From a virus, in the IMG/VR virus record IMGVR_UViG_3300021425_001636, positions 1 to 45,810 of that record: DNA of 45,810 bases; one strand, 5' to 3'. The translations under genes were made by a program, and so were the position numbers. This document shows positions 8,868-45,810 of the stretch, one piece after another. The notes below the pieces were generated by a model. The model did not search any database. It was not told where the DNA came from and was given only the letters and a program-made list of their open reading frames with translations. Every line of letters starts with the position of its first letter. Positions within the stretch are counted from its first letter, which is position 1.

Positions 8868-8875
8868 TATAAATA
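8868..8875 (+). promoter_or_regulatory. T4-type late promoter (distal)
   Basis: TATAAATA followed by CACTATAC on the plus strand. The expected start near 8881 lies within the -10 box of the opposing early promoter. It stands exactly 60 bases before the second late promoter and would give a leader of about 60 bases for the gene at 8941. Confidence 0.65.
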
Positions 8876-8927: not shown

Positions 8928-8935
8928 TATAAATA
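8928..8935 (+). promoter_or_regulatory. T4-type late promoter, abutting start codon
   Basis: TATAAATA, then ACACT, then ATG at 8941. The geometry is identical to that at 212-227 and, on the other strand, at 40854-40839. The predicted transcript starts at the ATG itself. Confidence 0.8.
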
Positions 8936-8940
8936 ACACT

Positions 8941-9207
8941 ATGAGTAATGATCTATTCGATTTTGGGTTTACCCTTGTAGACGAGAACGAACTGGATGCT
9001 GTGCAGAAGGCACAGGAAACAGTATCGTCTGTATCTACATCTGTATCCGAAACACAAGATAAACTAGATAAACTGTTCAATGCGATTCAACCGTTATTGA
9101 ACAATCTGAAACAGAATCCCGAAAAGGAATATATTCTGTGGCCTAATCGACTTGAGAAGATCGAACAGTTCGAAGACCACATACAAAAGTTATACAAAGG
9201 CGAATAA
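8941..9207 (+). CDS. conserved late hypothetical protein
   Basis: 88 residues: an acidic start (DLFDFGFTLVDENELDA), a coiled-coil-like middle (VQKAQETVSSVSTSVSETQD) and KLDKLFNAIQPLLNNLKQNP with YILWPNRLEKIEQFEDHI. The second half resembles a small protein conserved in marine T4-like phages; function unknown. It is first in a late plus-strand operon of four genes, and the next start overlaps its stop as TAATG. Confidence 0.75.
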   Translation: MSNDLFDFGFTLVDENELDAVQKAQETVSSVSTSVSETQDKLDKLFNAIQPLLNNLKQNPEKEYILWPNRLEKIEQFEDHIQKLYKGE

Positions 9208-10013
9208 TGTTACTCTATAGGACTCAACCTAGAGACGATGTTCATAACAACATAATCAACCTCAACAAGAAAGAGGACTTGATTAATAATGTTGGTGTGA
9301 AGTTCAAACGGAGAAAGATAACATCCAATGATGCAACTGCATTGTTGACCGATGCCTCTGTGATTGATGGTTTGATAACAAGTGGTGGATATGAGAATAT
9401 TCTTGTAGTAACTTCTTTTGAAGACAGACACTATGATGAGTTAAGAGATAGAATATATCGTCCAGTCAATAGTGCGGGTGACCACTATCTACCAATCGTT
9501 CACAAAGTAAACGAGTCTGCCGGCAACATGGTTGTGACCATGACAAAGAATGCAGATAACTATATGAAACCCCTGTACGAACAGTATGAAGTTCCTACAG
9601 TAGAAGCGGAATCATATTTTCGTCTTGACGAAGATTTCAGAATCAAGACTAGTACAAAGTTTGACTGTGTAGTTCTATTGGGATGCGAAGCGTCAAGAAA
9701 AGGAACACACAAGGTTAGTGATATCAAGAAGAAGTTCTCCAAGTATTGTACTTCAGACTTTGACTTGATTGATGTGTATCGAAATGATGCACGAAAAATT
9801 AGTGGTGGTACTCAAGATATAAGTAGTCATGTCGAGAGAATGGTTGAGTGTGTAAACACTCCAAAAAGAATGTACGATAAAAAGAATCGTATTATCCGCA
9901 GTGCGGAATCTAAGGTGTTTGCTTTCTACAGATTGTTTCCAACACGACAACTTCTCTACTATAGACTTGTATTGAATCTGGAAAATGCAAACGAATATTA
10001 TAAGGTGTATTAA
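9207..10013 (+). CDS. late protein of unknown function, tandem paralogue A
   Basis: 268 residues. Not recognised. It shares the order of motifs with the next gene: YENILVVTSF near residue 65, a PIVHKVNESAGNMVVTM strand region, then FDCVVLLGCEASRKGTH with DIKKKFSKYCTSDFDLIDVY. Alternating hydrophobic strands and helices suggest a Rossmann-like alpha/beta fold. A C-terminal region of about 60 residues (RNRIIRSA... type, basic) ends in YYKVY, echoed by IKVY in the next gene. It is expressed with late genes, so a virion-associated or late host-interaction role is possible. Confidence 0.7.
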   Translation: MLLYRTQPRDDVHNNIINLNKKEDLINNVGVKFKRRKITSNDATALLTDASVIDGLITSGGYENILVVTSFEDRHYDELRDRIYRPVNSAGDHYLPIVHKVNESAGNMVVTMTKNADNYMKPLYEQYEVPTVEAESYFRLDEDFRIKTSTKFDCVVLLGCEASRKGTHKVSDIKKKFSKYCTSDFDLIDVYRNDARKISGGTQDISSHVERMVECVNTPKRMYDKKNRIIRSAESKVFAFYRLFPTRQLLYYRLVLNLENANEYYKVY

Positions 10014-10852
10014 TGGAAAATAGAAACATTACCCTAAACACAATTGTGCGAGATGTTGATGGTGATAACAAAAACTCTATTCTAGTTTCTCCGACACAGT
10101 TACAACTTTTTCAAGAGAAATTGCGTAATAGAGTTAAGAGTTATACCACAGACAAACAGACTGACAAAATTCTTGCAGTAACGAGACAACACCTTATGGA
10201 TGGTCTGGTAGTAAGCAACTTCTTTACTTGTATGGAATACCAGAATATATTGTTTGTCCCTTCCTACAAAAACAGCAAGTATGCGAATGGGTTGTTGGAT
10301 GCCAACTACAGGATGCAAAAACCTAATGCTGGTCAACACATGGCCCCAATCATCAACAAAAGGTTTGATTGTGCCCCCAATATTTGTGTCGCATATCCTG
10401 AAGGTCATACTAGTCTATATCATGACCTAATGTTAGATTTTGGGGTAAAGATGATTCAATCCAGTGCTATGTACGGATTGGGTATGGAAGATTATACAAT
10501 CACACCACCAGATGGTGTAAAATTCGATTGTGTATATTTTGTGGGACATGGTGTTGAACAAGGAACAAGTTTCAATGCAAATGACATAAAAGCAGACTTT
10601 GCACCTTATTGTACAGAAGACTTCGATTTGGTTGACCACTATGCGAGCGAAGCTACCGCACTTGCGGTACAGAGAGATACCGAATTACCAGAAAAACAAC
10701 CCCGATTAGTGGGAGAGACAAAAGACCTCAGTGAACTGATGGAGTTTCTTACAACCAATACACTGAGACAAGACAATTTTCAAAATCAATTACCATCAAG
10801 ACATAGAGAGAGAATGGTTGAAATTCTTTCCCATGTTATTAAAGTTTACTAA
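10013..10852 (+). CDS. late protein of unknown function, tandem paralogue B
   Basis: 279 residues, clearly related to the preceding gene: YQNILFVPSY aligns with YENILVVTSF, FDCVYFVGHGVEQGTSF with FDCVVLLGCEASRKGTH, and DIKADFAPYCTEDFDLVDHY with DIKKKFSKYCTSDFDLIDVY. Start and preceding stop overlap as TAATG with AAGGTG as ribosome binding site. The duplication is old, since overall identity is low outside the motifs. No enzyme family is recognised. Confidence 0.7.
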   Translation: MENRNITLNTIVRDVDGDNKNSILVSPTQLQLFQEKLRNRVKSYTTDKQTDKILAVTRQHLMDGLVVSNFFTCMEYQNILFVPSYKNSKYANGLLDANYRMQKPNAGQHMAPIINKRFDCAPNICVAYPEGHTSLYHDLMLDFGVKMIQSSAMYGLGMEDYTITPPDGVKFDCVYFVGHGVEQGTSFNANDIKADFAPYCTEDFDLVDHYASEATALAVQRDTELPEKQPRLVGETKDLSELMEFLTTNTLRQDNFQNQLPSRHRERMVEILSHVIKVY

Positions 10853-10861
10853 GGAAAACTA

Positions 10862-11542
10862 ATGATTAAGTTTAAAAAATTCATGACAGAAGGTGTCGAT
10901 GACCCCGCAATCTTTAAGGCAGTATTCCTCGCTGGTGGGCCTGGGTCTGGTAAATCTTTTATTGTAGGAAAGACTGGTCTCCCCGCTCTTGGTTTGAAAG
11001 TCATCAACTCGGATGATGCATATGAAGCGGCAATGAAGAAGGCAGGGATGGAAATGTCTCCCGAAAATATCTTCTCCGTTCAGGGTCAAGATATACGAGG
11101 TCGTGCAAAGGCACTTACTGGTAAGAAACAAGCACGATATCTTATGGGTAGACTCGGTGTTGTGGTTGATGGTACTGGTAAAGAATTTGACAAGGTCAAG
11201 AAACAAGCACAGGCGATGAAGGCACTAGGTTACGATGTCGCAATGATCTTTGTTAATACTGATCTTGAAACTGCAATCTCACGAGACAAAGCTCGTCAGC
11301 GTACAATCGGTGAAAAGGAAGTAACTAAGTACTGGAAAGAAGTGCAACGAAACATCGGTGCATTCCAGACTTTCTTTGGTAAACCTAATATGTTAATCGT
11401 TGATAACTCAGACGGTAAGGACTACCAGAAAGAGACTCTCCGTGCATACAAAGATGTTCGGAAGTTCTTGGACAAACCACCAGAGAACGCAAAAGCGAAA
11501 TCGTGGATCAAGAAAGAACGAGAGAAGAAAAAGAGAAAATAA
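10862..11542 (+). CDS. P-loop kinase-like protein with capsid-targeting-like N-terminus
   Basis: 226 residues. A Walker A motif GGPGSGKS lies at residues 25-32, followed by VINSDDAYE and RYLMGRLGVVVDGTG, as in zeta-toxin or polynucleotide-kinase-type P-loop kinases. The first ten residues, MIKFKKFMTE, followed by G, resemble the T4 capsid targeting sequence of internal proteins (MKTYQEFIAE, from memory), which the prohead protease removes after the glutamate. The protein may therefore be packed in the head and delivered with the DNA. The C-terminus is strongly basic (KSWIKKEREKKKRK). It is the last gene of the late plus-strand operon and converges on the gene at 11545. Confidence 0.75.
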   Translation: MIKFKKFMTEGVDDPAIFKAVFLAGGPGSGKSFIVGKTGLPALGLKVINSDDAYEAAMKKAGMEMSPENIFSVQGQDIRGRAKALTGKKQARYLMGRLGVVVDGTGKEFDKVKKQAQAMKALGYDVAMIFVNTDLETAISRDKARQRTIGEKEVTKYWKEVQRNIGAFQTFFGKPNMLIVDNSDGKDYQKETLRAYKDVRKFLDKPPENAKAKSWIKKEREKKKRK

Positions 11543-12180: not shown

Positions 12181-12572
12181 TACAATTTTACCAATTCCCT
12201 ATTCTTCAGATGTTGTTCTGCAATGTCATCTTTGGATTGACCCATGTAACGCACTGCATGATGTTCGGTAATTAACAACTCGTTGATGTTTTCCCCATCA
12301 ACAAGAAACTCACCGAGGATACGACCAAACTTACCCTTACCATCTTTTGTTGTTTTCAGAATGGGAGTCTTACCTAACTGAGTCTTGAGAAACTCTTTTG
12401 CGGCAAGTCCAAACTTCTTTTCGACTTTATCACGAGTTCGTGATTCGGGGGTGTCCACGCCAAGTAAACGGACTCTCTCCTTTCGAAGCCATACACCAAA
12501 TCCCAAATCGATATCGACATCAACGGTATCACCATCAACGACACGAACCACTTTTGTTCTGTATTCATACAT
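12180..12572 (-). CDS. staphylococcal-nuclease-like (thermonuclease) protein
   Basis: 130 residues covering one SNase domain with no signal peptide. VVRVVDGDTVDVD gives the first calcium-binding strand, VRLLGVDTPES supplies R35, D40, T41 and E43, and GKFGRILGEF supplies R84; these correspond closely to the catalytic and calcium residues of Staphylococcus nuclease (D21, R35, D40, T41, E43, R87). It should cut DNA or RNA with calcium. Without a signal sequence it would act in the cytoplasm, for example on host nucleic acid. It sits oddly among sugar enzymes. Confidence 0.88.
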   Translation of the reverse strand: MYEYRTKVVRVVDGDTVDVDIDLGFGVWLRKERVRLLGVDTPESRTRDKVEKKFGLAAKEFLKTQLGKTPILKTTKDGKGKFGRILGEFLVDGENINELLITEHHAVRYMGQSKDDIAEQHLKNRELVKL

Positions 12573-13221
12573 TCATCTGACCCTTTATAGTTTCGTTTCC
12601 TTTTTTACCCGTATGATGAATTATCTTCGGGTTTCTTACATTTATACCATCTATGTAGTCTAATCGTAAAGTGTTGTATGTGTGTGACATTGGTTCTATG
12701 CAAGTCATCTTATATATCTCATCACCATTCATCATGAGATACAATACCTCTTGGTCACCTTGTACGGGATTACGAATACACTCATCTGCCCATGCTTTTA
12801 GAATATTGGGTGTACCTTCAACTGCCACAACACCAGAGTTATACCATCTACCCATGTCGGGTCTACGTTGTGTCCACGGTCTGTCCTCTACCATTGCGAG
12901 TTTACCCATGACAGTCTTGGTGAAGATGTCCTCGATATTGTCAGTGATCTCACAGTCGGTATCAACCCAACATACCTTGTCAACACCGTCCAGTCTGGTT
13001 GCATCTAGAATTGCACGAGGTTTCTTGAACCATCCTTGTGCCTCACTCTTGACATCAATAACCAAGTCAAAGACAGACTCCATCTTGGTTCGTGTCTTGG
13101 ACTCCATACCAAAGTCTGCAAGGACAATAGGTTTGGTATTGTATTTGCGATAGTTCTCAATAAACCACGGGAGTTGCCACTCGGTGTGTTTATCACAACC
13201 TGTCAGGAATACTTCATGCAT
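12565..13221 (-). CDS. glycosyltransferase-like protein, GT-A type
   Basis: 218 residues from MHEVFLTGCDKH at 13221; this ATG overlaps the upstream stop and has AGAAGGAT about a dozen bases ahead, while longer in-frame starts run into the neighbour. VCWVDTDCEI contains a DxD motif for metal and nucleotide-sugar binding, followed by RWYNSGVVAVEG and GDQEVLYLMM, an order typical of GT8-like retaining glycosyltransferases. The end, RNPKIIHHTGKKG, supplies a late histidine. The acceptor is unknown. Confidence 0.75.
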   Translation of the reverse strand: MHEVFLTGCDKHTEWQLPWFIENYRKYNTKPIVLADFGMESKTRTKMESVFDLVIDVKSEAQGWFKKPRAILDATRLDGVDKVCWVDTDCEITDNIEDIFTKTVMGKLAMVEDRPWTQRRPDMGRWYNSGVVAVEGTPNILKAWADECIRNPVQGDQEVLYLMMNGDEIYKMTCIEPMSHTYNTLRLDYIDGINVRNPKIIHHTGKKGNETIKGQMNV

Positions 13222-13861
13222 CGATGATTTCATATCCTTCTTTCCAATTATGTTTTGCGAGACATCCTGTTTCTGTTTGAATTGTTGTAAATGTGTCTCG
13301 TGCTTCTGCAATGAATGGATACCATTCTTGTAACCAAGGGAAAGTGTCTAGGTTCAGATACACATCAGTTGGTTTTGCATACATGGGTGCATTCTCTACC
13401 AATAGTTTTGCACCAGCGGGAGTCACCATGTACGCATGAGCGCCAGGAAAATATCTCTTACTTGTTAATTTATTGATTCCCAATAAGGGCGGTGTTTCGT
13501 ATCTACCATAGGATGGAGAACCCAGATTCATTACAAAGTTGGGAAATGCTGGCGGGATACTGTCGTATATGAACGCATCATGTTCAAAGATTACAAAGTT
13601 TTCATTCTCTTTCGCACACATCTGCCACAGTGTATAATGAGATAGAAATGCAGACATACAGTTCAAATTTCTTGAATACTTCTCATCAAACTTCTTGGGA
13701 TCAATACCTTCTTTCTTTAACAACCAGACAGGATCGTCATCGGGAGTGACTGCCTGAAACTTCTGAATGTTTACTCCATGACGCTTACCAGATGCAATAC
13801 ATCGGTTCGCAGACTCAACTGATTGTTTGTTTTCTAATAATGTAATTACGAATGCTTTCAT
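13214..13861 (-). CDS. glycosyltransferase family 25-like protein
   Basis: 215 residues from MKAFVITLLENKQS. The order FVITL, then CIASGKRHGVN, NCMSAFLSHYTLWQMCA and NFVIFEHDAFI is the GT25 pattern of LPS galactosyl/glucosyltransferases, with EHDA in place of the acidic donor-binding motif. AYMVTPAGAKLLVENA is the following conserved helix. The start overlaps the upstream stop as ATGA. It is a paralogue of the gene just upstream and probably transfers a sugar in surface glycan synthesis. Confidence 0.75.
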   Translation of the reverse strand: MKAFVITLLENKQSVESANRCIASGKRHGVNIQKFQAVTPDDDPVWLLKKEGIDPKKFDEKYSRNLNCMSAFLSHYTLWQMCAKENENFVIFEHDAFIYDSIPPAFPNFVMNLGSPSYGRYETPPLLGINKLTSKRYFPGAHAYMVTPAGAKLLVENAPMYAKPTDVYLNLDTFPWLQEWYPFIAEARDTFTTIQTETGCLAKHNWKEGYEIIDA

Positions 13862-14571
13862 TTTGTTGTGGTTGATTTCAACCCCTTCTGTATTGTTGTG
13901 TAATAAGGATATACGACCTGTAACCAAGGGAACATTTGTTTACACATTAGTGCATCGTTAGGCCACATTCCCACTTCTCTTACCTTATCTAGTAGTTTCT
14001 TTGCACCCTTCGGAGAGATCATATATGCAGAGTTTCCTGCCAGTCCTTGAGGTACATCCCAGTCATCTATCGTAGGAACTGATTGTAAACCCTCTTGAGA
14101 CACTACTTGTCTATGGAACTCTTGAGACCTTCTAGTTGCACCTCTTGGATCGTTTAAGCCTATTATACCACCCTTCCATTCTTCTGTCAAGTCTTTCGGT
14201 TTAAGTTTTCTTGTGAACAATGCATCATGTTCCAGTACAACAATGGTCTCATCAAGGTCGATTGCTTTCTGCCATGCCCTCATATGACTTACCATACACG
14301 CAACACGATTGTTATGATTCGCAGTCGGATAGTGGGTAAGACGGAGTCCTGTTTTCATATCAAGACCGTCTTGATGTTTGTCTATGGGATATGTCCATGC
14401 AATTCCTCCCAGTCCCAGACCTCTAATATCAACTCCAATGGTATCTGGTATCGTAGCAGGCATAATGATAGGTTCGAGTTTAGAACCAGTCTCTTTGATA
14501 GATTGGATAACCATACGAGTCGCAACTGTGGACTCGTGATTGTTTATCATACTAATTATGAAGGCCTTCAT
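13858..14571 (-). CDS. glycosyltransferase family 25-like protein, paralogue
   Basis: 237 residues from MKAFIISMINNHES; an ATG two codons upstream is less likely. CMVSHMRAWQKAIDLDETIVV, LEHDALF and AYMISPKGAKKLLD parallel the downstream gene, so the two arose by duplication. An insertion around residues 150-180 (TRRSQEFHRQVVSQEG) is absent from the partner. A perfect TTGACA-17-TATAAT promoter lies inside the coding sequence at 14162-14190. Confidence 0.75.
   Translation of the reverse strand: MKAFIISMINNHESTVATRMVIQSIKETGSKLEPIIMPATIPDTIGVDIRGLGLGGIAWTYPIDKHQDGLDMKTGLRLTHYPTANHNNRVACMVSHMRAWQKAIDLDETIVVLEHDALFTRKLKPKDLTEEWKGGIIGLNDPRGATRRSQEFHRQVVSQEGLQSVPTIDDWDVPQGLAGNSAYMISPKGAKKLLDKVREVGMWPNDALMCKQMFPWLQVVYPYYTTIQKGLKSTTTK
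14162..14190 (-). promoter_or_regulatory. sigma70-type promoter inside a glycosyltransferase gene
   Basis: TTGACA (14190-14185), 17 bases and TATAAT (14167-14162) on the minus strand, both hexamers perfect. It would transcribe the 3' part of this gene and the four genes below it. Confidence 0.65.
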
Positions 14572-15289
14572 CAACATCTTTTACATATTTCCATTTGTCC
14601 GATGGATAACATCCACCATGATAACTCTTGTGAAACATTCCCAATGGTTCGGATAGTATCTGATACCATCCCTCTTCTGCAGCTCTCAATCCTTTATCCT
14701 TATATAGAGAATCTACTAAGTCGGTATCCCAAATCTCTCTAGGGTGCATTATCAAACCATCATTGATATATTGTTTTTGCTCTTTACGCATATCAACGAG
14801 TTCGTTGTATCCATATATAGTTCTATAGTCCACACAGTTGAATCCTATCGGGAACACACCCTCGTATGACTCATCAAGAAAATCTTCCCAAGGGATAACC
14901 TCAGACACGACCACATCAAAACGAGTTCGAATAATCATGTCATATTCTTCGGGAATGGATTTCATCATCTCGTTGTGTATGAGAATCTGTTTGTGCCAGT
15001 TGGCAGAAGCGTAAGCTGATTTTGTGAGTTGATGTTCCAAACCCCTTTCAATAATACTACCAAACATTCTACGATACAGTTTACTCACGCCATTGGGGTA
15101 TGGTGAGATATCAAATATTGGGTGATATTCGTTCTCAGGTTCATCAAAGTAGTAGTCAACATCAAAGTCTTGACCCTTCCATGTACCAGTGAACATTCTA
15201 TCATGGGGTATTATTCGTTGTGTTCGGTCAATCCACTTCTGATTACAGTGTTCGTTCCATCTACCAGATAAACATAACGCAGTCTTCAT
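14552..15289 (-). CDS. sugar-transferase-like protein of the RxRxD family, copy 1
   Basis: 245 residues from MKTALCLSGRWNEH, with the ATG overlapping the upstream stop as TAATG. Features are ALCLSGR at the start, SANWHKQILIHNEMM, YDMIIRTRFDVVV with an RxRxD motif, and a C-terminal AEEGWYQILSEP then YHGGCYP. This is the pattern of small phage proteins thought to be glycosyltransferase-like; the chemistry is unproven. The genes at 32162-32899 (close) and 23028-23957 (distant) share it. Confidence 0.7.
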   Translation of the reverse strand: MKTALCLSGRWNEHCNQKWIDRTQRIIPHDRMFTGTWKGQDFDVDYYFDEPENEYHPIFDISPYPNGVSKLYRRMFGSIIERGLEHQLTKSAYASANWHKQILIHNEMMKSIPEEYDMIIRTRFDVVVSEVIPWEDFLDESYEGVFPIGFNCVDYRTIYGYNELVDMRKEQKQYINDGLIMHPREIWDTDLVDSLYKDKGLRAAEEGWYQILSEPLGMFHKSYHGGCYPSDKWKYVKDVDEGLHN

Positions 15290-16635
15290 TACCACTCACG
15301 CAGAAACTTCTCAAGGTCTTCGGGCGTACCAAGTCCCCACATCTCTTCTACATTGTGTGCGAATATCTTCTTACCCATCAGGATTGCCTGATTGAATACA
15401 GGACACACATAGAACTCACCGTTCACTCGTTTCTGCATTGCGATCATATCTTTTGCAGACTCAACATAGTCTTCACCATGTTTCCAGTAGTAGAAACCCA
15501 CAGTCGCATTGTCACTGATTGGGTCTTTCTCTGCAACCTTAGTGACCATACCATCATTATCAACCGCAGCGTAACTCCACTTGGGATGTGTCGCTTTGAA
15601 AGTAACAATACCACCATCTGCGTTTAACTCGTTCATCTTGTACAGGAAGTCAAGAGAATTCCATCCCACCCACTGATCAGAGTTTGCAATAAACAGTGGT
15701 TGGTCATTGTCGATATATTCTTCGGCAAGTAATGTAGTACAAGCTGCACCCTCAGTGATACCATCAACCTCAACAATCTTACAGTCAGGGGCAATCAAGT
15801 TCAACATATTGTCTAGGTTATACTTCTCACGATGTTCCTTCTGTACAATAAAGATGTAGTTCGCATCGATATTGATATTATCGACCACGGTCTGAATCAT
15901 CGGTTTACCATTGACATCAATCAAAGGTTTGGGGAAACTGTATCCTGCCTTCGCAAAACGACTACCCGCACCCGCCATAGGAATTAGTACATTCATTTTC
16001 TTATCCACCCACTTAGGTTTCGTTTGTTTCTCACCATCAATTAACTCAAGTAAATCTCTATTCACATATTCGGGAGAGTCCACCCTAATGATTTGATGTG
16101 CAGGCACACCAGAGTGATATGCAGATGCAAGACCCTTCGGTGAATCCTCAATGATAACACATTCTTCAGGATAGACACCAAACTCTGTCATTGCATTCCA
16201 CCACATTTCAGGGTGTGGTTTGGGATTGGTCACATCGAAAGTAGTCTGCACGATATCGATATACTCTTCCAAGTCCAACATCTTGATACACTTATGTACC
16301 GTCCTGTCGATGGCATTAGAACAGACACCAATCTTATAACCCCGTTGTTTTAGAATTCCAAAGAGTTCGGTAATATCGGCATCAGGTTTGATTGTGTTCA
16401 ACTTGTAATAAGTGACAGATTGTTTGTGTATAGAAATCTTATCCTTCAAGTCTTCTTCTACACCCAACATATCCAACTTCTCTTCGGTTGGTAGTCCATC
16501 AAATTTAGATAGATGTTCTTCCATAGAGATTTCTGGATATCCATATTTCACCAGTGCATCATTCAATGCATCAAAGTGAATCATCTTAGTGTCAACAAGG
16601 ACACCATCTAAATCGAACAGTACAAGTTTAATCAT
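15289..16635 (-). CDS. HAD phosphatase - sugar nucleotidyltransferase fusion
   Basis: 448 residues with two enzymes. Residues 1-205 form a HAD domain: FDLDGVLVDT (D8, D10), CSNA near 105, K139 in NPKPHPE and EDSPKG at 163-168. Residues 213-448 form a nucleotidyltransferase: VLIPMAGAGSRF with SFPKPLIDVNGKPM, then NSDQW for metal binding. Such a pair could remove a phosphate from a sugar bisphosphate and activate the product as NDP-sugar, as in heptose pathways where separate HAD and nucleotidyltransferase enzymes act in turn. It would supply donor sugar to the neighbouring transferases. Start overlaps the previous stop as ATGA. Confidence 0.85.
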   Translation of the reverse strand: MIKLVLFDLDGVLVDTKMIHFDALNDALVKYGYPEISMEEHLSKFDGLPTEEKLDMLGVEEDLKDKISIHKQSVTYYKLNTIKPDADITELFGILKQRGYKIGVCSNAIDRTVHKCIKMLDLEEYIDIVQTTFDVTNPKPHPEMWWNAMTEFGVYPEECVIIEDSPKGLASAYHSGVPAHQIIRVDSPEYVNRDLLELIDGEKQTKPKWVDKKMNVLIPMAGAGSRFAKAGYSFPKPLIDVNGKPMIQTVVDNINIDANYIFIVQKEHREKYNLDNMLNLIAPDCKIVEVDGITEGAACTTLLAEEYIDNDQPLFIANSDQWVGWNSLDFLYKMNELNADGGIVTFKATHPKWSYAAVDNDGMVTKVAEKDPISDNATVGFYYWKHGEDYVESAKDMIAMQKRVNGEFYVCPVFNQAILMGKKIFAHNVEEMWGLGTPEDLEKFLREW

Positions 16636-17249
16636 TTCTTTATCGCAATTATGTAAGTGTCGCCAACATTAGTTTCTTTTCTTCGGTCATGATGTGTAAC
16701 TTCATATGGGTCTAGTGCCGACATGAATCGGTTGTGTTTCAGTATATCATATCTATCGGGATGTCTCTTTAACCAATTATTCTGTAATTCTGCATGGTTC
16801 ATTCTATCCATTGGCCATACATCTTCAATAAAGTATGTTCCGTCATCCTTTAGAAATGGTATAAGATTCTCGAATGTCAATCTGTTTGCCTCAGGCCAAT
16901 GCGCTCCGTCATCGATGATGAAATCAAACTTAATATCACCCCACTCGTTTCTTATTTTCGTACCAAGAGATGCATCCATAGAATCTGCCTTCAACCAGTT
17001 TACACGGTCTTTGTGTAAAATGTCCAAGTCTTTTGGGTCTGTCCTCACAAAGATATCGATGGTGTAGATATTGGCATTAGGAAAGTAATCATAGAATGCA
17101 CGAGTCGATGCCGCCTTGAATGTACCAATCTCCAGAAAGTTAAGAGGTTCGGTTCTCACTTCCTTAAAATGTGGTTCATAGTCCTTGTAATAGTGGTGTT
17201 TACTTGTACCCTTATCACAATCGTATTTGTCAAATAGTTCTTTAAGCAT
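16632..17249 (-). CDS. class I SAM-dependent methyltransferase-like protein
   Basis: 205 residues. FLEIGTFKAAS near residue 38 is the SAM-binding glycine loop, NIYTIDIF supplies the acidic residue of strand 2, and FDFIIDDGAHWPEA resembles the DDxxH region of CmcI/MycE-type O-methyltransferases that modify antibiotics and sugars. It then has GTYFIEDVWP and ends GDTYIIAIKK. The substrate is most likely a sugar hydroxyl given the island. It overlaps both neighbours by four to eight bases. Confidence 0.8.
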   Translation of the reverse strand: MLKELFDKYDCDKGTSKHHYYKDYEPHFKEVRTEPLNFLEIGTFKAASTRAFYDYFPNANIYTIDIFVRTDPKDLDILHKDRVNWLKADSMDASLGTKIRNEWGDIKFDFIIDDGAHWPEANRLTFENLIPFLKDDGTYFIEDVWPMDRMNHAELQNNWLKRHPDRYDILKHNRFMSALDPYEVTHHDRRKETNVGDTYIIAIKK

Positions 17250-45426: not shown

Positions 45427-45810
45427 TTACCAAAAGAACGACCCTCCACCAGATAGTCCAAGTTGTTTTGCATAACGGGGTAAACGACACGCCCAGTATG
45501 CAGCCTTCGTCTTGTCATTCTGTTGAGCGCACTTGTGACGAGCAGCGAATGACTTACGTGCCTTCGGGTCATTCAACTTGACTTTAAGTCCAGTAGTATC
45601 ACCCCAAGATACTTTTTTAATATTACCAGTCGATGGGTCTTTGACATACACATAGTACTTCTTCGGCCCACCTGCCTTTGGTTTGTTTAGTTCTGGTTGT
45701 TTCTCTTCAAAGATACAATCTAATGCTACATTCTCACCCTTAAAGACTCCGAAATTACCGAGGTCAGATTCCATAATATCCACTTCACTAGGGTCAATCT
45801 CAATCTCACC
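45427..45810 (-). CDS. DUF5872-like protein, cut by the window edge
   Basis: At least 127 residues are seen; the frame stays open to the right edge, so the true start lies outside and the GTG at 45783 need not be used. The C-terminal domain has KKYYVYVKDPSTGNIKKVSW, DPKARKSFAARHKCAQQNDK and AAYWACRLPRYAKQLG, which I recall as DUF5872, a basic C-terminal domain on many marine T4-like phage proteins. Function unknown. Confidence 0.65.
   Translation of the reverse strand, partial: GEIEIDPSEVDIMESDLGNFGVFKGENVALDCIFEEKQPELNKPKAGGPKKYYVYVKDPSTGNIKKVSWGDTTGLKVKLNDPKARKSFAARHKCAQQNDKTKAAYWACRLPRYAKQLGLSGGGSFFW

Follow-up and report, generated by a model that had tools for sequence, protein, structure and literature searches.

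A T4-type leader on an accessory P-loop kinase points to likely packaging of the enzyme in the phage head

The window analysed here is a 45.8-kb IMG/VR virus record (45,810 nt) with 74 ORFs. It contains a plus-strand operon of four genes (8941-11542) that has minus-strand genes on both sides and ends with a gene for a P-loop kinase (Table 1), whose N-terminus in the ORF translation is MIKFKKFMTEGVDDPAIFKAVFLAGGPGSGKS. The protein exceeds the curated Pfam cut-offs for AAA_33 (41.6 bits versus 27) and Zeta_toxin (40.5 bits versus 22.3) and contains a Walker A motif that is all but invariant among its homologues; thus, it meets the criteria for the P-loop kinase superfamily (Zeta toxin/AAA_33). 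Searches of Pfam and PHROGs gave no useful family match for the first three genes (88, 268, and 279 aa). The part of the operon comprising these genes (8941-10852) is common to the window and a 149-kb relative, G001, whose kinase is 85% identical, and is partly shared with the Kyanoviridae phage C48C1. Because C48C1 lacks the kinase but has the core of the operon (genes of 88 and 280 aa), we regard the kinase gene as accessory, i.e., as an optional cargo gene. Elsewhere in the window, a run of minus-strand genes (12565-17249) resembles, by eye, glycosyltransferases, a phosphatase-nucleotidyltransferase fusion, and a methyltransferase.

Table 1. Features of the kinase operon and related elements in the window
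Feature	Coordinates	Strand	Evidence or remark
P-loop kinase gene, AAA_33/Zeta_toxin type, PNK/PSTK/AK-like fold	10862..11542	+	ORF, ATG start, 226 aa
Leader MIKFKKFMTE	10862..10891	+	F4 and F7, targeting; M8 and E10, processing; very probably a T4-type capsid-targeting signal
Predicted prohead-protease site E10/G11 (M-T-E/G)	10889..10894	+	Cleavage itself inferred
Walker A GGPGSGKS, residues 25-32	10934..10957	+	Sequence
AAGGAA, Shine-Dalgarno-like, of the kinase gene	10851..10856	+	Sequence
Operon gene 1, 88 aa, function unknown	8941..9207	+	Homologue in C48C1
Operon gene 2, 268 aa, function unknown	9207..10013	+	ORF list, family searches
Operon gene 3, 279 aa, function unknown	10013..10852	+	Homologue at 27% identity in C48C1
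TATAAATA, T4-late-promoter-type box upstream of the operon	8868..8875	+	Conserved in G001
Second TATAAATA box upstream of the operon	8928..8935	+	Conserved in G001
Contig-edge fragment, N-terminus cut off	45427..45810	-	By homology, C-terminal domain of cluster proteins that bear the leader in relatives

An AlphaFold2 model of the kinase, built on an alignment of the window protein and its IMG/VR relatives only, had a mean pLDDT of 82.5. The sole stretch below 50 comprised residues 1-9, and residues 4-11 were modelled as a helix. By fold, the model matched polynucleotide kinase (PNK), PSTK, and adenylate and guanylate kinases in the PDB, with most matches aligning from residue 11 or later and zeta toxin as the exception. 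Because most of these matches leave out the first ten residues, a cut after E10 would leave the kinase domain whole. This boundary is shown as a prediction of the model; the cut is inferred. By sequence, the PDB yielded only weak adenylate-kinase matches (best E 0.0097), and the fold is equally like those of PNK, PSTK, and adenylate kinase (AK). The substrate is likely either the end of a nucleic acid or a small molecule, with both activity and substrate being inferred.

At its N-terminus, the kinase has ten residues that resemble the capsid-targeting leader of the T4 internal proteins. T4 IPII and IPIII both begin with MKTYQEFIAE/A (the slash precedes the residue after the leader), as verified in their sequences. 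These ten residues are enough for targeting, and in amber-suppressor genetics targeting rested for the most part on residues 4 and 7, and residues 8 and 10 were needed for processing (PMC9026906, a review of Black's work). The Met-initiated leader of the kinase has aromatic residues at both targeting positions (F4 in place of Tyr, F7 identical) as well as a hydrophobic residue at position 8 (M8 in place of Ile) and an identical E10. The strict pattern defined below is found at no second start codon of the window. The original prediction had noted the likeness of MIKFKKFMTE, before G at 10862, to the T4 internal-protein targeting peptide. The likeness is confirmed by sequence, the T4 peptide as quoted there is correct for IPII and IPIII, and the four-position match (aromatic at 4, F7, aliphatic at 8, E10) holds with Met as the residue at position 8. 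T4 IPI has a longer leader, MKTFKEF-TSTTTPVST-ITE/A.

Several lines of evidence show that this resemblance is very unlikely to be a chance match. First, we scored a strict motif, i.e., a fixed pattern over the four T4 positions, at the start codons of 1884 ORFs from ten T4-type genomes or fragments, with shuffled N-terminal residues as the null (300 shuffles). The motif was observed at 16 ORFs versus a mean of 0.75 expected and a maximum of 4 in the shuffles. These 16 matches are not fully independent, as some are mutual orthologues and three are the kinase itself. In T4, the sole strict matches are IPII and IPIII, and in the 74 ORFs of the window about 0.03 matches are expected by chance. A relaxed motif gave 28 matches versus 4.3 expected, including evident false ones; because it is less clean, our claims rest on the strict motif. 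A scan of the HTVC008M genome gave zero strict matches; the kinase of this phage has a degenerate leader without a second aromatic residue.

Second, the pattern is conserved among homologues of the kinase. We recovered 80 environmental loci, many near-identical, of which 79 had readable leaders. The original prediction proposed a comparison of homologue N-termini, and all 79 keep the leader pattern: [FL]xx[FY] followed by I/L/M, long leaders included, with the aromatic residue at position 4 replaced by Leu in a few. The leaders of canonical length comprise 15 distinct 10-mers in which position 4 is always F, position 7 is F or Y, position 8 is I, L, or M, and position 10 is E, while positions 2, 3, 5, 6, and 9 vary. 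This set was chosen by pattern and, therefore, the fair claim is limited to [FL]xx[FY] plus I/L/M over all leaders. The longer leaders (MQTFKDYMEFAE/G, MLKFSNYIQQLDE/G, and MLSFENYLKEELRQIEE/G) carry an insert between the aromatic head and E/G, such that the head stays beside the Met and E/G beside the domain, an arrangement as in T4 IPI. Among cultured phages, homologues are found in the Kyanoviridae phages Melnitz (QZI95068.1) and HTVC008M (AGE60463.1) as well as in a jumbo phage, Atu_ph07. The leaders in HTVC008M (MIPFILKE/G) and Melnitz (MKTFAELQE/G) are degenerate and retain E-G, and E-G is also retained in Atu_ph07, in which the kinase forms an internal domain (VTEGVNDKHIFKA). We rejected the idea that the conserved E10-G11 proves cleavage, because E-G persists at this internal domain and behind degenerate leaders.

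Third, the same leader is common to otherwise unrelated proteins of related phages. Its bearers include DUF6267 proteins, a cytidylyltransferase, DUF5824 proteins, small basic proteins, and a RimK-like ATP-grasp protein. One relative, G003, has MLSFINFISE/A on a basic protein of 123 aa, MIKNFSQYLVE/E on a cytidylyltransferase-like protein, MISFKNYLEE/K on a DUF5824 protein, and MKKFKQYVEE/G; the locus L081 has MENFSNFITE/Q on a DUF6267-type protein; and C48C1 has MMLDFKNFITE/Q, MLSFKQFVSE/V, MITFKKYLEE/K, and MKKFKQYIDE/G. Melnitz has MQGFKTFLSE/A, MINFSKYITE/D, and MTQKFSQFITE/E, the last on the RimK-like ATP-grasp protein. In G001 the leaders are MKFNDFITE/Q and MIKDFKSYLVE/E; the cluster proteins of this phage other than the kinase were found by homology, as the motif misses their aromatic head, which lies one residue away from the usual place or has been substituted. 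In Melnitz and the cyanophages, the cluster of leader-protein genes comes after the gene for a gp41-type helicase, and in HTVC008M the kinase gene itself is located inside this cluster. The RimK-like protein of Melnitz (MZ577098, 82-1131) is a candidate head-packed protein-modifying enzyme.

Fourth, proteins with the leader have been detected in virions of cyanophages. In S-CREM2 (OR473000), an ORF scan found the strict motif in exactly 3 of 206 ORFs: ORF14, an APH/ChoK-like kinase (MKRFDAFLTE); ORF6, an SAM hydrolase (MKDFDSFLEE); and ORF154, a cytidylyltransferase (MKNFSSFLTE). These three are the entries listed as "Regulatory protein" in the mass spectrometry of S-CREM2 virions (PMC10665884). 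With 52 proteins detected among about 219 genes, we calculate the chance of three of three being detected as about 0.013. Near matches detected in the same virions are ORF13 (MKDLHSFLTE) and ORF15 (MNFSEFNES), and ORF12, a Cas9-like nuclease also detected, has RFASFMAE/A behind an N-terminal extension. Together, ORFs 12-15 and 6 comprise a nuclease, an SAM hydrolase, and an APH-like kinase in which the leader is present in normal or displaced form, which suggests that they form a counter-defence set for injection. In other cyanophages, the NMNAT ORF91 of S-SCSM1 (MKSFLQFLKE/A) is annotated as a virion protein (PMC9602691), the cytidylyltransferase S-SZBM1_140 (MRFRQFIIE/A) was detected in virions (PMC9146016), and T4-GC190, the P-SSM2 member of which starts with MKSFSQFLTE, was detected in S-SM1 virions (PMC3037559). 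The S-CRM01 kinase, reported in virions, starts with MISFDQFLSE; kinase homologues of S-N03, S-H34, and S-B68 have degenerate leaders, and we saw no virion data for them. As counter-examples, two small proteins encoded near the terminase gene have a perfect leader and are absent from the proteins detected in the respective virion proteomes, i.e., S-SCSM1 ORF30 (L154:44215-44535, MKTFKQFMSE/S) and S-SZBM1_191 (122311-122628, MKSFKSFLSE/S, 105 aa). Both the S-CREM2 and the S-SCSM1 study note that CsCl-purified virions may hold contaminants, and the authors leave open whether the enzymes are cargo or contaminants. The passages on virion enzymes in these cyanophage papers do not mention a targeting sequence, and beyond T4 reviews we found no link between capsid-targeting sequences and marine phages or cyanophages in the literature searched.

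The genomic context agrees with expression during head assembly. TATAAATA is the late-promoter box of T4. The window contains eight such boxes (at 212, 5489, 8868, 8928, 21651, 24393, 40847, and 43838) versus 2.3 expected, and none of 100 shuffles reached eight; two of them lie upstream of the operon. Kinase genes that stand alone (L034, L081, and L049) have a single box 34-40 nt upstream, while several other homologues have none within 150 nt upstream. The late expression that the original prediction had assumed agrees with these boxes, from which alone it is inferred. G001 encodes an S77 prohead protease and gp23; in the 45.8-kb window, which is a fragment, a search found neither gp21 nor gp23. 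In G001 gp23, GFMTE/N occupies the position at which cyanophage capsid proteins have LTE/A or LAE/A. The P3 residue of the kinase site is Met, in contrast to Ile or Leu in the T4 proteins, and this counts against the packed-kinase reading. Because G001 gp23 has GFMTE/N, this protease could plausibly accept Met at P3, although sequence is also the only basis for the capsid maturation sites. Directly upstream of the prohead protease gene, at the place of the T4 gp67/gp68 core proteins, G001 has a 73-aa gene, MKSYKEILQELSEA (141302-141523, L095).

We suggest a model in which the kinase would be made during head assembly from the last gene of the late operon. F4 and F7 of the leader would bind the prohead core, such that the kinase is enclosed while the shell forms. 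The S77 prohead protease would then cut after E10, leaving a mature kinase that starts at G11 inside the head and that would enter the next host cell together with the DNA. In that cell, the enzyme, as an ATP-dependent member of the polynucleotide-kinase/zeta-toxin superfamily, could act ahead of any phage gene expression. We consider this reading as a whole, i.e., a T4-type leader on an accessory P-loop kinase that is packed in the head, cut after E10, and injected, to be likely, and that the leader is a capsid-targeting signal to be very likely. Packaging of the kinase is probable and is an inference, there being no proteomics for this phage or this kinase family. Cleavage at E10 is likewise probable and inferred; the glutamate that the original prediction had named as the protease site is present, but its conservation is confounded by Atu_ph07. 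Injection and activity in the host, also inferred, are more likely than not. Thus, the late-expressed, head-packed, and injected kinase of the original prediction has gained computational support, with packaging, cleavage, and injection remaining inferences.

Three alternatives merit consideration. In the one that survives best, the leader targets the kinase to the prohead core, where the enzyme serves head assembly or DNA packaging, e.g., by phosphorylating DNA ends, rather than being a delivered effector. In its favor, T4 IPIII influences head assembly (PMC9026906) and PNK-like folds are among the best matches of the kinase. Against it, the kinase is accessory, as C48C1 has the operon without it, and the T4 internal proteins are ejected (PMC9026906). 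We consider this alternative unlikely. Still less likely is that the leader is merely an N-terminal helix of the kinase fold kept for core packing or translation and that the enzyme works inside the infected cell without being packaged. The AlphaFold helix at residues 4-11 and the retention of E10-G11 at the internal domain of Atu_ph07 and behind degenerate leaders are in line with this idea; however, the same leader occurs on unrelated folds, residues 1-9 have pLDDT values below 50 and most fold matches begin at residue 11 or later, and inserts of variable length separate the aromatic head from E-G. Finally, the motif is short, with the above chance expectation for a window of this size, but a single N-terminus that resembles T4 by chance is all but excluded by the 79 of 79 homologues that keep the pattern and by the unrelated and virion-detected proteins that share the leader.

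With the packed-kinase reading preferred, a bolder one can be formulated, in which the T4 leader is a superfamily-wide address label. Marine T4-type phages (Kyanoviridae and relatives) would use it to fill their heads with a modular enzyme set for delivery at injection. The evidence tips slightly toward this view, in which the set is composed of the P-loop kinase, APH-like kinase, SAM hydrolase, NMNAT/cytidylyltransferase, RimK-like ligase, and Cas9-like nuclease. Several cyanophage virion proteomes list metabolic or regulatory enzymes for which their authors could not decide between cargo and contaminant, and a short N-terminal label singled out exactly the three virion-detected regulatory enzymes of S-CREM2. 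If the bolder reading is true, the injected effectors of marine T4-type phages would be predictable from the N-termini of their genes, the window kinase family would count among the candidates for early effectors, and the packaging code of T4 would reach far past small basic proteins and T-even phages. In Atu_ph07, 29 proteins of the cluster CDS 31-76 were found in virions (PMC6102473); its kinase-domain protein, AUZ94865.1 (39484-41820), is the 53rd CDS from the start of the record and lies within this cluster, which favors packaging; whether it was itself detected is unknown. The same phage has a tandem array (L159:41844-49507, AUZ94866-AUZ94874) of at least nine otherwise divergent proteins that start with M[RK]W[x]QL[TNI]E and have YRGM or YRGI, and the adjoining gene fuses an array-type unit to the kinase domain. 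It is possible that this array is a further family of head-packed effectors; that its members are ADP-ribosyltransferases, as the YRGM motif hints, is no more than a possible lead without Pfam support.

Zeta toxins, polynucleotide kinases, and PSTK share the P-loop kinase fold and the Walker A motif with the window kinase, which has no close solved relative by sequence. T4 Alt, a virion ADP-ribosyltransferase, is a head-carried enzyme, as the window kinase is inferred to be, and is cut by gp21 and injected; it differs in being another enzyme with another N-terminal propeptide (cut at ITE-6). With T4 IPI, IPII, and IPIII (Mullaney and Black 1996; PMC9026906), the window kinase shares the plan of a ten-residue leader with aromatic residues at 4 and 7, a hydrophobic residue at 8, and E10, and is also alike in the T4-type protease (encoded in a relative), the late-promoter boxes, and the accessory nature of the gene. 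However, the T4 internal proteins are small basic cargoes whereas the window cargo is a P-loop kinase of 226 aa with Met at P3 and Gly at P1', the presence of which in virions is inferred. The APH/ChoK-like kinases of S-CREM2 and S-CRM01 and the NMNAT/cytidylyltransferases of S-CREM2, S-SCSM1, and S-SZBM1 belong to protein families other than that of the window kinase and resemble it as putative enzyme cargo with the same leader.
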